Below are positions 31,861 to 46,420 of a stretch of DNA of 64,000 nt, in pieces (position 1 is the stretch's first letter; each line of letters opens with the position of its first letter). The DNA comes from an uncultured Opitutia bacterium. Lineage in GTDB: Bacteria; Verrucomicrobiota; Verrucomicrobiia; Opitutales; Coraliomargaritaceae. The DNA lies in contig CAKZOI010000039.1 of assembly GCA_937136395.1 (NCBI GenBank), positions 1 to 64,000 of the forward strand, given 5' to 3'. Made by a program: the position numbers and the translations under genes. Under the pieces are notes generated by a model, which was not told the origin of the DNA, ran no database searches, and was given only the letters and a program-made list of their open reading frames with translations.

Positions 31861-32721
31861 ATGAAATTCCACAAATACCACGCGCTCGGAAATGACTACC
31901 TCGTTCTCGATCCAGAAGAAGCCCCCGCACTACCAGCTACCGACGATACGGTTCGTATTTGCCACCGTAATTTCGGTCTTGGCTCTGACGGTATTCTCTA
32001 TGGTCCAATTCCGACAGAGAAAGCCGATTTCGGTCTACGCATCATCAATCCAGATGGCTCTGAAGCGGAAAAGAGTGGCAATGGTCTACGCATTTTTGCT
32101 CGCTATCTTTACGATATTGGCAAGGTCGCCAATGAAGCCTTCACAGTGGATACCCTTGGCGGCATCGTGACTTGCGAAATCGGCGAGAATGCAGAATTGA
32201 TCACTGTCGACATGGGCAAAGTCAACTTTGCGATGGACCATATCCCAGTAGATGGGCCCGAACAGGCCGACCACAACATCGGTCAAGAAATCGAAGTGAA
32301 TGGAACTGAGTATACTTGCTATATCGCCGACATCGGCAACCCACACTGCGTGGTTCCACTCCCTGAAATTTCAGAAGCGCTCGCCTGCAAGGATGGGGCT
32401 GCACTCGAAGTGCATGAACGTTTCCCAAACCGCACCAATGTTCAGTTTTTAAAAGCTCTGGACCGTAATAACATACAAATCGAGATTTGGGAGCGCGGTG
32501 CTGGCTATACACTCGCTTCTGGATCGAGTAGTAGTGCCGCGGCTGCAGTCGCTCACCGAATCGGTCTGTGCGATCACAATATCACGGTGCATATGCCAGG
32601 GGGTAAGATTGCGATCACAATAGGCGACGACTATGCGGTGCGTATGGCTGGCCCCGCAACGCGTGTTGCAACAATGGAGTTTGATTCTGAAGCACTCGGC
32701 TTCGTGGTGGATAACGCGTAG
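31861..32721 (+). CDS. dapF: Diaminopimelate epimerase homologue with both catalytic cysteines replaced by serine
   Basis: 286 residues, normal DapF length and fold. DapF interconverts LL- and meso-diaminopimelate for lysine and peptidoglycan, using two cysteines as acid and base. GNDYLVLD, NPDGSEAE and ERGAG are conserved, but the first active-site Cys (usual CGNG) is Ser72 (AGT, 32074-32076) in EKSGNGLR. The second (usual CGTGAC or CGSGAC) is Ser220 (TCT, 32518-32520) in LASGSSSSAAAA; the Glu of GETxACG is Tyr. Both codons are clean and the frame is open, so this is not damage. It may be a serine-based epimerase, a different isomerase, or inactive. No neighbouring lysine gene; copy A of the repeat begins 24 bp after the stop. 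Confidence 0.85.
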   Translation: MKFHKYHALGNDYLVLDPEEAPALPATDDTVRICHRNFGLGSDGILYGPIPTEKADFGLRIINPDGSEAEKSGNGLRIFARYLYDIGKVANEAFTVDTLGGIVTCEIGENAELITVDMGKVNFAMDHIPVDGPEQADHNIGQEIEVNGTEYTCYIADIGNPHCVVPLPEISEALACKDGAALEVHERFPNRTNVQFLKALDRNNIQIEIWERGAGYTLASGSSSSAAAAVAHRIGLCDHNITVHMPGGKIAITIGDDYAVRMAGPATRVATMEFDSEALGFVVDNA

Positions 32722-32854: not shown

Positions 32855-33901
32855 TCACACTTTAAGTGCAGGTTGATGCTGGCTCATACAATGGAGCGCA
32901 CCGCCTTCGCGAATGATATCCTGACAGTCAAAACCGACAACTTCTCGCTCGGGGAAGCAGGATCCGATAATTTCCATCGCTTCTGCATCACGATCAGCTT
33001 GCCCAAAAGTAGGCACAATGACCGCTCCATTGAGAACCATATAATTCAGGTAACTCGCGGCCAAAGGCTCGCCATCGTCAACAATTGGTTTCGGCAAAGG
33101 CACTGTTACCGACGCATAACCTTGCCTGCGTGGTGTCCTAAAATTTTGAATACGCTGTGTATTTTCGCAGAGTGCTTCATAATTAGGATCGGATGGTGAA
33201 GGCGTTTCAAGATACACGATGCCGTCTTTTCTAAAAAAGCGCGCCAAGTTATCAATATGGCCATCCGTATCGTCACCCACAAGGCCTTCATCGAGCCAAA
33301 GCACTTCATCAATACCTAAGCCCCAGTGCAAACGATCCCCGATCAAATGTGTGGTCGTGGCACCATTACGGTTGGGATTTAACAGCACCGCTTTCGTCGA
33401 AAGCACTTGCCCTGCACCATTACTGTCAATGGCTCCACCTTCAAGCACCTCGTCAAAAGCAAATCGCTCGAGACCCAACTCTTTCGCAATCCACTCAGAT
33501 GCCGCGTTGTCCTTCTGCTGCTGTGGAAATTTATTACCCCACGCATTGTATTGCCAATCTGAGATAGCAATAGAGCTACCATCTTCACTCAGTAAAAATA
33601 GTGGTCCAAAATCGCGACACCAAACGTCGTCTGTTTCATAGTCAAACAGCTCCACCTGAGCAGAGTCGCCTGCGGCATCCATGAGTGCTCTCAATTCTGC
33701 CTCAGCCGAAACCGGACACAAAACGCGGACAGTCTGAAAGCGCGCGGCGAGCACATAGAGTGCCGCCAACTGCGCTTTGACCACTTCATTACGCCCCCCC
33801 CAAAGGTCGGTGCGAGTGGGCCAAGCAAACCATACAGCCTCTTGTGGTTCCCATTCTGCGGGAAAGCGATAGCCGAGTTCTTTGGGTGTCAATGTCTGCA
33901 T
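32855..33901 (-). CDS. aguA: Agmatine deiminase
   Basis: 348 residues of the peptidyl-arginine-deiminase fold. Hydrolyses agmatine to N-carbamoylputrescine and ammonia. Active-site motifs are present: WCRDFGPLFLL, VLEGGAIDSNG, DGHIDNLARF and the nucleophile Cys338 in GGALHCMSQHQP. ATG 33901 (MQTLTPKELG) fits the family start; a longer frame to 33994 is rejected. The next pathway enzyme, aguB, is 450 bp upstream in the same direction. The gene is flanked by repeat copies A and B in inverted orientation. Confidence 0.93.
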   Translation of the reverse strand: MQTLTPKELGYRFPAEWEPQEAVWFAWPTRTDLWGGRNEVVKAQLAALYVLAARFQTVRVLCPVSAEAELRALMDAAGDSAQVELFDYETDDVWCRDFGPLFLLSEDGSSIAISDWQYNAWGNKFPQQQKDNAASEWIAKELGLERFAFDEVLEGGAIDSNGAGQVLSTKAVLLNPNRNGATTTHLIGDRLHWGLGIDEVLWLDEGLVGDDTDGHIDNLARFFRKDGIVYLETPSPSDPNYEALCENTQRIQNFRTPRRQGYASVTVPLPKPIVDDGEPLAASYLNYMVLNGAVIVPTFGQADRDAEAMEIIGSCFPEREVVGFDCQDIIREGGALHCMSQHQPALKV

Positions 33902-34353
33902 AATATTCGATTCAGAAAGGTGTGGCGATGAGGTGGATGTTAGATTATAACCAGTAAAAGACTTCAGTGTCGTGGCCATTCGGCAAATTAACAAGCACTT
34001 GCGGATTTGTAAATCACTCGCTCAGATGATTCAAACTCGTTCGATCCCATTCTTCGTATGAATAAAACAAGTTCGGGAACGACTCTGACGTTTCCTTGGA
34101 GGGTGAGCTCCGTCGCCACCGCGTCGTGTAAGCTGAGCGTGAAGGGTGTATCGGCGGCGGTGACGGAGCGCCGCCCTCCATTTACGTTTATTCGAAGGTT
34201 TGTCACTAGAATCGCTGCCCGCACTTGATCAAATTCGTATTGTATTTGTGTCAACTGGTTGAAAAATACGCCAGGATGCCTCCTCTGAATCCTCAACAAC
34301 AGACCCCGCGCAAGCTCGGACGCCACTGTCTCCTGCCCACTCCCTACGGTTTA
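33902..34353. other. 452-bp gap between aguB and aguA
   Basis: This stretch holds repeat copy B (34097-34180). A minus-strand frame (33988-34326) opens across it but has the repeat in its middle and no ribosome site or recognisable domain, so I do not call it. The parts on either side of the repeat show no RNA gene or clear promoter. Confidence 0.6.
34097..34180 (-). repeat. Dispersed two-hairpin repeat, copy B (inverted)
   Basis: The same element read on the minus strand: TGGAGGGCGGCGCTCCGTC at one end and GACGGAGCTCACCCTCCA at the other, with the inner ATACACCCTTCACGCTCAGC shared exactly with copy A. The hairpin stems have more mismatches than in the other copies. It lies 173 bp after the aguB stop and in opposite orientation to copy A across aguA. 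Confidence 0.85.
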
Positions 34354-35241
34354 CTATACTTCGTCGTCGACCATTCGACGAGTGATCTCCGGATAACTAT
34401 CGATACGGCGATCCCTAAAAAAGGGCCAAATACGACGCATATCTTCGAGCGCCTTTAAATCACAATCAGCCATAATGACTGCTTCTTTATCCACGGGTCC
34501 ACGCTCGATAATCTGACCATAAAAATCAGCTACGAAGGACTGCCCCCAAAATTCAGTATCACCTTCCTGTCCCGTGCGATTTACCGCGGCCACATAGCAA
34601 CCGTTTGCCACCGCGTGGCCGCGCTGCACCGTTTCCCATGCGGTATGTTGAGCTTCGCCAAGTTCTGCTTTCTCTTCAGGCAGCCACCCGATCGCGGTCG
34701 GATAAAAGATAATCTCCGCCCCCGCCAAAGCAGCAAGACGAGCTGCCTCTGGATACCATTGATCCCAGCAGATCAACACGCTGATTTTACCAAATTTCGT
34801 ATCCCATACCTTATAGCCAAGGTCTCCAGGGGTGAAATAAAACTTTTCCTCAAAGCCAGGGTCTTGAGGGATATGCATCTTGCGATACTTGCCCAAATAA
34901 GTGCCATCCGCATCAATCACTGCCGCGGTATTGTGATACACACCTGCGGCACGTCGCTCAAACAGTGCAACAATCAAAACGACACCTAGTTCAGCCGCAA
35001 CCATAGCCAGCGCATCGGTCGTGGGCCCCGGAACTGACTCAGCAAGATCGAATAGATCGGTGTCTTGCGTGCGACAAAAATAAGGCGTGTTAAACAATTC
35101 TTGCGTGCAGATTACTTGTGCGCCACCTGCAGCAGCTTCGCGGATGCGTGCAATCGTATACGAAAGATCCGCCTCTTGCGAACCTTGTTCACGCCCTTGA
35201 ATCAGGCCGATCCGGACCTTACGTAGATTTCGTGCACTCAT
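34354..35241 (-). CDS. aguB: N-carbamoylputrescine amidase
   Basis: 295 residues of the nitrilase superfamily. Hydrolyses N-carbamoylputrescine to putrescine, CO2 and ammonia, the step after AguA. The Glu-Lys-Cys triad is visible: Glu48 in CTQELFNTPYF, Lys121 in KYRKMHIP and Cys158 in VLICWDQWYPE; the substrate-pocket segment AIGWLPEEK is typical of AguB. ATG 35241 (MSARNLRK) is chosen over an upstream start inside the hisG terminator. With aguA this gives the arginine-decarboxylase route to putrescine. Confidence 0.93.
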   Translation of the reverse strand: MSARNLRKVRIGLIQGREQGSQEADLSYTIARIREAAAGGAQVICTQELFNTPYFCRTQDTDLFDLAESVPGPTTDALAMVAAELGVVLIVALFERRAAGVYHNTAAVIDADGTYLGKYRKMHIPQDPGFEEKFYFTPGDLGYKVWDTKFGKISVLICWDQWYPEAARLAALAGAEIIFYPTAIGWLPEEKAELGEAQHTAWETVQRGHAVANGCYVAAVNRTGQEGDTEFWGQSFVADFYGQIIERGPVDKEAVIMADCDLKALEDMRRIWPFFRDRRIDSYPEITRRMVDDEV

Positions 35242-35242
35242 C

Positions 35243-35272
35243 AAAAAAACGGCGACTTCAGCTGAAGTCGCC
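35243..35272 (-). terminator. Rho-independent terminator after hisG
   Basis: A perfect 22-base palindrome (35251-35272, GGCGACTTCAG and its complement) is followed on the minus strand by G and seven T. It separates hisG from aguB; the aguB start codon is at its foot. Confidence 0.9.
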
Positions 35273-35283
35273 ATCGAAAGGGA

Positions 35284-45030: not shown

Positions 45031-45151
45031 AATGCCACGATAATTTAAGCAAGCGACCGAAGCGTGCAATCTACAAAACCGCGATACGACATTTAACTTC
45101 AATCTCACATCGCGCTTGCCAGCGATGGCGAAGCGCATTTCCTCTCACCGC

Positions 45152-46420
45152 ATGGCAAATAGCACACAGCCCCGCTTTCTCGACTACACCACGGCCCGCA
45201 CGGTCGCCGATCAGTTCGGCACACCCGTCTATGTTTACGACGAAGCCACATTAAAAACAAACGCCGCCGCCGTACTCGCATTCCCCAATGCATTTGGGCT
45301 CACCGCGCGCTATGCCATGAAGGCATCGCCAAATGCGGCGATCCTACAGATCTTCCGTAAAGCAGGTCTCCAAATCGACGCCAGCTCGGGCTACGAAGTG
45401 CGCCGAGCCATCGCAGCAGGCTACGAGCCCTCGCAAATTAGCCTCAGCACGCAAGAACTCCCCGAAGATTTCGCGGAGCTCTATGAAGCTGGCCTCGAAA
45501 TCAACGCCTGCTCACTCAACCAACTCGAACGCTTCGGAAAGGCTTTCCCTGGCCGCACTATCGGCGTGCGTTTCAATCCTGGCTCAGGCTCTGGAGGCAA
45601 CAATCGCACCAACGTCGGCGGGCCCGCATCCAGCTTCGGCATCTGGCACGAGTGGATCGATAAAGTGCAAGCCATCGTCGCTCAATATGATTTAAAGGTC
45701 ATCCGTATCCACACGCATATCGGTTCTGGCAGCGATCCCGCAGTCTGGCAAAAAGTCTCAGGCATGAGCCTCGACCTCGTGCGCCAATTCCCCGATGTTG
45801 TCGCGCTCAACCTAGGCGGCGGCTATAAAGTTGCCCGCATGGCCAACGAAGTCGGCACTGATCTGCAAGAATGTGGTGCACCTGTTGCTGAAAAATTCCG
45901 CGAATTTGCCACAGAGACCGGTCGTAAAATTCGACTCGAGATTGAACCCGGCACCTTCCTGCTCGCCAACGCCTGCTCCATCCTATCCAAAGTGCAGGAC
46001 ACCGTTTCCACAGGTGCCGACGGCTACGAGTTCCTAAAGCTTGATACCGGCATGACCGAAGTGCTTCGCCCATCGATTTACGGCGCACAACACCCGATCT
46101 ACATCCTTCAGCCCGAAGCGGCGACTACGACGCAAGCCTACATGATCGCAGGTCACTGCTGCGAGTCTGGCGACATCCTTACCCCCGCACCAGGCGACCC
46201 CGAACTCCTTGCGACACGCGAACTCCCTGTTGCTCAAATTGGTGATCTTTGCGTGATTGATGGTGCCGGTGCCTATTGCGCCGCCATGTCGACCAAGCAC
46301 TACAACTCCTATCCAGAAGCCGCTGAGATCATGCTCGCCGCCAACCAGAAGCCACACCTCATCCGCAAGCGCCAAGCACCCGCAGACTTGTGGGCGAATG
46401 AAGTGAGCTACGAAGGGTAA
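45152..46420 (+). CDS. lysA: Diaminopimelate decarboxylase-like PLP enzyme
   Basis: 422 residues of the alanine-racemase-fold group IV decarboxylases. PLP lysine in YAMKASPNA (Lys57), [27 protein letters not shown] for the phosphate and [11 protein letters not shown] for the substrate carboxylate; the CESGD motif is diagnostic for diaminopimelate decarboxylase. It should make lysine from meso-diaminopimelate. Some segments ([21 protein letters not shown]) look like a divergent LysA subgroup, so a related diamine substrate is not excluded. Repeat copy D begins 4 bp after the stop. Confidence 0.85.

Follow-up and report, generated by a model that had tools for sequence, protein, structure and literature searches.

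What does a diaminopimelate epimerase homologue do when serine stands in place of both catalytic cysteines? Textbooks present DapF, which is also a drug target, as an enzyme that works through a thiolate/thiol pair. The question arises from a gene in the window, by which we mean the whole analysed stretch of 64,000 nucleotides from an uncultured Opitutia bacterium. The gene starts with ATG and its reading frame is open over 286 amino acids. The encoded protein passes the NCBIfam profile TIGR00652 with 233 bits (curated cut-off 114.65), matches Pfam DAP_epimerase (PF01678) with 179.6 bits and has the cyanobacterial DapF 9mro as its closest solved structure by sequence (E 3e-51). The gene and its altered codons are located as follows:

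31861..32721, plus strand: Ser/Ser DapF homologue, 286 aa (TIGR00652, PF01678, AlphaFold model)
32074..32076, plus strand: codon 72, AGT, Ser; aligns with Cys73 of E. coli DapF
32506..32508, plus strand: codon 216, TAT, Tyr; aligns with Glu213 of E. coli DapF
32518..32520, plus strand: codon 220, TCT, Ser; aligns with Cys217 of E. coli DapF

The WERGAG and GNDYLVLD motifs are intact. An intact 286-codon gene with serine at 72 (AGT) and 220 (TCT), tyrosine for the Glu of GETxACG, and ERGAG and GNDYLVLD retained had been read in the original prediction, and the open frame, the codons and the alignment to E. coli DapF all agree with that reading. Since the catalytic Cys/Cys pair is missing, with Ser72 and Ser220 in its place, we class the protein with a Ser/Ser sister lineage and not with canonical DapF. 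Two further ORFs lie near the gene, at 32855-33994 and 34354-35274 (minus strand); judging from their translations, we take them to resemble agmatine deiminase and N-carbamoylputrescine amidase.

The AlphaFold model of the protein (pLDDT 93.1, pTM 0.90) has the two-domain DapF fold, with TM values of 0.72-0.87 (query) to DapF chains, and Foldseek ranks DapF first. Among the VIA matches, O-ureidoserine racemase (7vdy) comes top at Z 35.4, with DapF at about 27-34. Like DapF, O-ureidoserine racemase, PddB and HisR/CntK are cofactor-independent racemases of this fold; they act on other substrates and use two cysteines. In the model, the central helices start at residues 73 and 221, directly behind Ser72 and Ser220, and the catalytic residues of HisR are likewise placed at helix starts (PMC11602996, in excerpt). 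For C. glutamicum DapF, alanine mutants of DAP-binding residues at both ends of the substrate are reported to be nearly dead (PMC5296763, in excerpt). The C. glutamicum residues N15, N74, N85, N159, N194, E212, R213 and T223 correspond to N11, N63, N74, N160, N193, E211, R212 and S222 of the window protein. Across the 169 distinct Ser/Ser genes that we collected (see below), N63, N160, N193, E211, R212 and G221 are present in every row, N11 in 164 rows out of the 165 that cover this site, N74 in 167 rows, and Ser or Thr at 222 in all 169. The sharpest differences from the Cys/Cys set are S72, S220, Y216, I78 (Cys in the Cys/Cys set) and Q195, and further ones are P64, L46, L83, F79, F123 and I209. 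Because contact residues and fold are conserved, it appears that the binding site of a DAP epimerase was kept and its acid/base pair swapped. Thus, the protein shares with DapF from E. coli, H. influenzae and C. glutamicum the family score, the two-domain fold, the DAP contacts and its inferred place in the pathway. It differs in that both catalytic cysteines are serine, Glu213 is tyrosine, Gly220 is mostly serine, and residue 192, which is Gly in E. coli and Glu in most others, is Gln; in trees, the two types are separate.

The same comparisons bear on the suggestion of the original prediction that the gene might encode a proline racemase superfamily member with dehydratase-like activity. Two members of this superfamily, the Ser/Cys 4HypE and the Ser/Thr t3HypD, carry serine for the first cysteine in a DapF-like fold, as the window protein does, and the Ser/Thr pair of t3HypD is seen in one structure (PMC4113996, in excerpt). 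Their second site is Cys or Thr, and the Thr of t3HypD, whose first site is Cys or Ser, is Ser220 here; moreover, they act on hydroxyproline and share only about 15% identity with the window protein, as against 27-37% for DapF. DapF ranks far above the hydroxyproline enzymes in both sequence and structure, the residues of the distal DAP site are kept, and no hydroxyproline family was reported among the scanned neighbours in other genomes. We therefore regard a dehydratase as extremely unlikely.

We then considered the pathway into which the protein would fit. The product of DapL (LL-DAP aminotransferase) is LL-DAP, LysA needs meso-DAP to make lysine, and a DNPR motif in MurE indicates the use of meso-DAP. 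Whether the genome holds a second dapF or a dapL had been left open by the original prediction. A PF01678 search of the genome, which is 99.96% complete, returned the window gene as its sole DapF-family gene and found no second, canonical dapF, while DapL is present above its cut-off (NF004937, 622 bits; cut-off 585). MurE also scores above its cut-off (479 bits) and has the DNPR motif. A likely pathway partner is found in the window itself, 12 kb from the DapF homologue and outside any shared operon:

45116..46420, plus strand: LysA-like diaminopimelate decarboxylase (TIGR01048, 256.7 bits, below the cut-off of 297.9; CESGD present)

Within the sample of relatives described below, LysA exceeded its cut-off in only one of 57 genomes, and the order seems, from these sequences, to have a divergent type of LysA. 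Four of the 48 relatives with a Ser/Ser gene gave no LysA match (G042, G045, G047 and G049), and G042 also lacked MurE. Diaminopimelate dehydrogenase (Ddh, TIGR01921), an unrelated NADPH enzyme that fills the same metabolic gap where DapF is missing, gave no match in a profile search of the window's own genome. As DapL and a LysA-like protein are present while Ddh and any other DapF are absent, the window gene appears to be the required epimerase. Homology, binding residues and pathway context together make it likely that the enzyme epimerises LL-DAP, and we consider that the gene probably encodes a functional LL-DAP epimerase, which belongs to a separate DapF lineage without catalytic thiols.

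Our sample of relatives comprised 57 genomes, the window's own included, with a DapF match in 50; relatives of lower completeness that had no match were left uncounted (e.g., G007, G026, G029, G036, G041 and G052). The combination Ser72/Tyr216/Ser220 was read in 48 of the 50 matched genomes (own included; one sequence was pieced together from two contig fragments). One of the other two, G043, is Cys/Cys, and the motif of G050 was unread. We also searched 288 genomes of the phylum, with a listed completeness of about 90% or higher, using a profile of Ser/Ser proteins. Scores of at least 310 bits were obtained in 56 genomes (taken as Ser/Ser) and lower scores in 212, and 20 genomes had no match. 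Motif readings were Ser/Tyr/Ser at 20 of 20 upper-tier loci and Cys/Cys at 20 of 20 lower-tier loci; in all, motifs were read in 34 of the 56 Ser/Ser and 20 of the 212 other DapF genomes, the rest being assigned by bit score. Outside the phylum, the same profile scored Ser/Ser proteins down to about 237 bits and read Cys/Cys proteins up to 244.6 bits, and because of this overlap the unread mid-score rows might hide some Ser/Ser genes. Two large genomes with 5-9% contamination, G289 and G320, contain both DapF types.

If the Ser/Ser gene makes meso-DAP, its loss should be accompanied by a replacement. Within the 288 phylum genomes, Ddh scored above its cut-off in 3 of the 56 that have a Ser/Ser gene, 17 of the 20 that lack DapF and 33 of the 212 that have another DapF. 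The contrast between the first two groups gives a Fisher p of 3e-11, a value that treats genomes as independent although they represent few independent lineages. A second DapF model found nothing in the 20 DapF-less phylum genomes or in G051 (0 of 21). In the sample of relatives, Ddh exceeded its cut-off in none of the 48 Ser/Ser genomes, and its sole match was in G051, which has no DapF. Since genomes are not independent, we prefer a count of lineages of the order as the fair unit, and looked at five that lack the Ser/Ser gene. Two have Ddh instead, at 443-462 bits (f19-g43, with G195 and G221, and f16, with G051), and two have a Cys/Cys DapF instead (f13-g47, with G268 and G331, and f8, with G043). 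The fifth, f13-g48 (G327), showed neither DapF nor Ddh, so the expectation of replacement held in four of the five. Of 44 genomes of the order, 39 are Ser/Ser (three of them also with Ddh), two are Cys/Cys, two have only Ddh and one has neither; none has both DapF types. G327, which is of the same order and 97% complete, and likewise G149 and G199 lack Ddh as well as every type of DapF, which points to another route to meso-DAP or to incomplete bins. The LysA of G327 scores 447 bits.

These patterns also speak to the idea of a catalytically dead pseudo-enzyme that is retained for a structural role. Both catalytic thiols are gone, and E. coli DapF is known, from PDB titles, in complex with RppH. 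Set against this are the position of the window gene as the sole DapF beside DapL and a LysA-like protein, the presence of Ddh or a Cys/Cys DapF where the Ser/Ser gene is absent, and the conservation of both serines and of the substrate-binding residues across many phyla. A pseudo-enzyme is thus very unlikely, and a working epimerase remains the reading that we follow.

How far the signature extends was assessed by a pattern scan of GTDB. The pattern required Tyr216 and, at 220, a W-S-N codon, which admits Ser, Thr, Cys and several more residues; Ser72 was left out of it; Tyr216 is therefore partly built into the scanned set, and the scan counts are not frequencies. At least 116 stretches were found, among them at least 106 with Ser/Ser. 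The other stretches, among the matches listed, were three partial genes with Ser220, four Cys/Cys genes with Tyr, one partial gene with Cys220, one mixed Cys72/Ser220 gene (L215) and one stretch without a DapF match. By the labels in the record titles, the Ser/Ser loci span at least 18 named groups at phylum level, to which SAR324 and unlabelled bins are added. Among the matches listed (106 Ser/Ser), Verrucomicrobiota account for 30, Bacillota for 17 (with many titled as Lachnospiraceae), Chloroflexota for 9, Thermodesulfobacteriota, as labelled, for 8, Pseudomonadota for 7, and every other group for at most 5. Most of these records are MAGs, and single occurrences may reflect binning or culture contamination. 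Among the records not labelled as MAGs are Lacrimispora, Anaeromicropila populeti, Desulfosporosinus hippei DSM 8344, Rahnella inusitata DSM 30078, Mangrovibacter plantisponsor DSM 19579 and Glaciimonas immobilis DSM 23240. Over all sets read, we count at least 169 distinct Ser/Ser genes and one Cys/Ser gene. In the 195 distinct genes in which both sites were read, residues 72 and 220 are Ser or Cys only, never Ala, Thr or Gly. The original prediction had asked whether the serine pair marks a clade and allowed for a mere local oddity. Its presence in nearly all matched relatives and in so many phylum-level groups, together with the lack of a second dapF in the window's genome, answers in favour of a clade. 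We found no published report of a Ser/Ser DapF and no literature linking Opitutus with diaminopimelate epimerase; subscription papers were largely beyond reach, so that the absence of such a report is unproven. In a Geothrix MAG (L107:2423-3844), the Ser/Ser DapF has an N-terminal extension of ~190 aa to which no NCBIfam model matched, and in this protein and that of L164 SGNG is replaced by SGDG.

Our main tree, for which the motif columns were excluded, contained the 169 distinct Ser/Ser genes, 44 Cys/Cys genes and L215. A single branch (SH-aLRT 91) sets all 44 Cys/Cys genes apart from L215 and every Ser/Ser row. Smaller trees gave the same split with SH-aLRT of 99 (all columns) and 97 (motif columns excluded); 12 of their 109 Ser/Ser rows are second copies of one gene, which leaves 97 distinct cores. 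All trees are quick and unrooted, have long branches and carry SH-aLRT support only. The codons of the two serines differ in family. At site 72, AGY is used in 150 of the 169 genes and TCN in 19, and at site 220 TCN is used in 154 and AGY in 15. On a 152-row tree, at least three switches between AGY and TCN are required at site 72 and at least seven at site 220; the codon analysis behind these minima covered 140 loci, representing 136 distinct genes. As the two codon families lie two base changes apart and both are used, selection acts on serine itself, and clade-wide conservation together with codon-family switching rules out a sequencing error or a pseudogene.

This bears on the proposal in the original prediction that two independent substitutions, and not decay, produced the pair. 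Decay can be rejected on the grounds just given, and the two sites are separable, since a Clostridia MAG holds a natural mixed DapF (L215:186-989) with Cys72, Tyr216 and Ser220. Tyrosine accompanies both serines in 169 of 169 Ser/Ser rows, in part by design of the pattern. The mixed protein resembles the Ser/Ser rows at Tyr216, Gln195, Ser223 and Cys34 and the other type at Met71-Cys72; it forms a long branch, so that its exact position in the tree is unsure. Judging from its sequence, it could be an intermediate linking the two types or a partial reversion to cysteine. Its gene sits upstream of an adenosine deaminase gene.

Gene neighbourhoods were surveyed at the Ser/Ser or partial Ser/Ser scan loci (at least 109), as raw counts with some calls by phmmer alone. 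Among the matches listed, nine of these loci have dapA, dapB, dapL or lysA in the fetched stretch: dapA and dapB at L143, L176 and L220, dapL at L184 (642 bits), and lysA above its cut-off at L137 and L144 and below it at L146, L148 and L150. Four more, again among the matches listed, have alr or ddl (L115, L134, L145 and L216). These counts leave out weak matches to M20 (dapE-like) at L164 and L181 and to LysA at L194. In a Chloroflexi MAG, a single 498-aa frame (L172:1991-3484) joins a C-terminal LysA portion to a downstream Ser/Ser DapF, its N-terminus being lost at the contig end. Although this is a single case, such a fusion is otherwise hard to explain, and it suggests that the Ser/Ser DapF makes the substrate of LysA. 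No DAP or wall genes adjoin the Ser/Ser dapF in the window's own genome and 29 relatives (1.5 kb flanks). Another 20 genomes, in which the only DapF is Ser/Ser, were reached via named contigs of several phyla and include one Opitutaceae; Ddh exceeded its cut-off in none, and LysA was found at E 1e-30 or better in 18, above its cut-off in 13.

Some copies may nevertheless do something else. When 42 genomes were searched for a second DapF, 18 had a Cys/Cys gene as well, 20 had a single match and four were unclear; as 18 carry both types, the Ser/Ser form is no simple duplicate there. In Lacrimispora, a Cys/Cys dapF lies about 19 kb from the Ser/Ser dapF, which is adjoined by a D-Ala-D-Ala ligase-like gene (L115:4434-6310 and L145:4391-6270), and in two spirochaetes the Ser/Ser dapF is flanked on both sides by alanine racemase genes (L134:4617-7999 and L137:1-3143). 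Pseudomonas sp. LP_7_YM (L127:227-3142) and Glaciimonas immobilis (L207:3348-6438) share a row of three genes, namely a PLP enzyme weakly similar to VioD/GntC (below cut-offs), an ArgC-like reductase and the Ser/Ser DapF, which looks like a specialised-metabolite cluster. In Rahnella inusitata DSM 30078 (L201:599-4493), the Ser/Ser DapF stands beside a PcaK-like transporter and a gallate dioxygenase (843 bits) and perhaps has a role in gallate breakdown.

These loci, including those with Ddl or Alr neighbours, and the genomes with both types lend weight to a second reading. According to it, the protein would act on another substrate, such as an amino acid that resembles DAP or occurs in peptidoglycan, a specialised metabolite or a keto acid, while meso-DAP would come by another route, e.g. 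a PLP-type DapF2 or Alr-like enzyme. A PLP-dependent DapF2, an Alr homologue unrelated to the window gene, has indeed been proposed from genome context as a non-standard DAP epimerase (PMC9026213, in excerpt), so that other epimerases are possible. Yet no genome among the 44 of the order has both types, and the lysA, dapA/dapB and dapL neighbours, the LysA fusion and the retained DAP-binding residues all speak for DAP. A changed substrate had also been suggested by the original prediction. It fits poorly with the contact residues and the neighbours, with the presence of DapL, LysA-like protein and MurE, and with the replacement of the Ser/Ser gene by Ddh or Cys/Cys DapF in lineages of the order. 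For the window protein we thus consider another substrate improbable. For the Pseudomonas, Glaciimonas and Rahnella copies it is possible or even likely, and a different role may remain for genomes that also have a Cys/Cys DapF and for some Pseudomonadota copies or paralogues. For the most part, the Ser/Ser lineage appears to do the same job as DapF.

With LL-DAP as the probable substrate, a serine-based mechanism is the natural reading of the window sequence. In such a mechanism, DapL would provide LL-DAP, which would bind, as it does in canonical DapF, in the interdomain cleft. Ser72 and Ser220, at the N-termini of their helices, would stand in for the thiolate/thiol pair; one would take the α-proton and the other would return a proton on the opposite face, while the hydroxyls would be tuned by Asn74, by the helix dipoles and by Tyr216, which is invariant and replaces Glu. 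Inversion of the one α-carbon would yield meso-DAP, which MurE would then place in the wall and LysA would convert to lysine. That Ser72 and Ser220 are themselves the acid and base is, in our estimate, close to an even chance. The wider proposal, that a lineage spread over many bacterial phyla uses two hydroxyls, and no thiol, to invert the α-carbon of LL-DAP, we put forward tentatively, at slightly less than even.

As an acid, the hydroxyl of serine is much weaker than a thiol, a point that favours a different base. Engineered Cys-to-Ser variants are reported to retain less than 0.1% activity in PddB (PMC8225329, in excerpt) and greatly reduced activity in HisR (PMC11602996, in excerpt). On the other hand, the natural Ser/Cys 4HypE is functional as an epimerase, and in the Ser/Thr dehydratase an Asn three residues on holds the serine, an arrangement which its authors propose for all members with that serine (PMC4113996, in excerpt). 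In the window protein, Asn74 lies two residues past Ser72, and not three.

The enzyme could also be a DAP epimerase in which the proton is moved on at least one face by the Tyr216 phenolate, Lys71, a bound water or a thiol such as Cys34. Tyr216 is present in all 169 Ser/Ser rows, Lys71 in 154 and Cys34 in all 165 rows with a letter. However, Lys71 is replaced in 15 rows by Ile, Thr, Leu, Glu or another residue, which weakens a Ser-Lys dyad. The Cys/Cys rows have Glu at 216 in 36 of 44 and Tyr in four (L130, L154, L170 and L204), which weakens Tyr216 as the cause of the change. As to displaced catalytic cysteines, Cys163 is not invariant, and Cys34, though invariant where covered in the Ser/Ser set, is also Cys in 16 and Ser in 21 of the 44 Cys/Cys rows. 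The restriction of sites 72 and 220 to Ser or Cys likewise argues against catalysis by another residue, and we judge it somewhat unlikely, keeping the two serines as the preferred pair.

If the serines do carry out the same reaction, the chemistry of cofactor-independent racemases would need revision, and the rule that such epimerases of the DapF fold require at least one cysteine would be broken. Models of the TIGR00652 type would then give the name DapF to a mechanistically different enzyme, and the mixed L215 protein would be a step between thiol and hydroxyl chemistries. Thiol-reactive DapF inhibitors, e.g. aziridines, should fail in Ser/Ser bacteria, whose DAP epimerase would be immune to disulfide oxidation or thiol reagents. 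In C. glutamicum, DapF is inactivated when its two catalytic cysteines form a disulfide (PMC5296763, in excerpt); as this switch needs the cysteines, the Ser/Ser enzyme should be redox-blind. For the Opitutales (verrucomicrobial subdivision 4), which have been described as lacking DAP or peptidoglycan, with C. akajimensis lacking DAP (PMC3035286, in excerpt), low levels of DAP were later found in some members, nearly ten times less than in E. coli and with no DL-DAP by thin-layer chromatography (PMC5303756, in excerpt). It is on this question of DAP in the Opitutales that the Ser/Ser gene bears.
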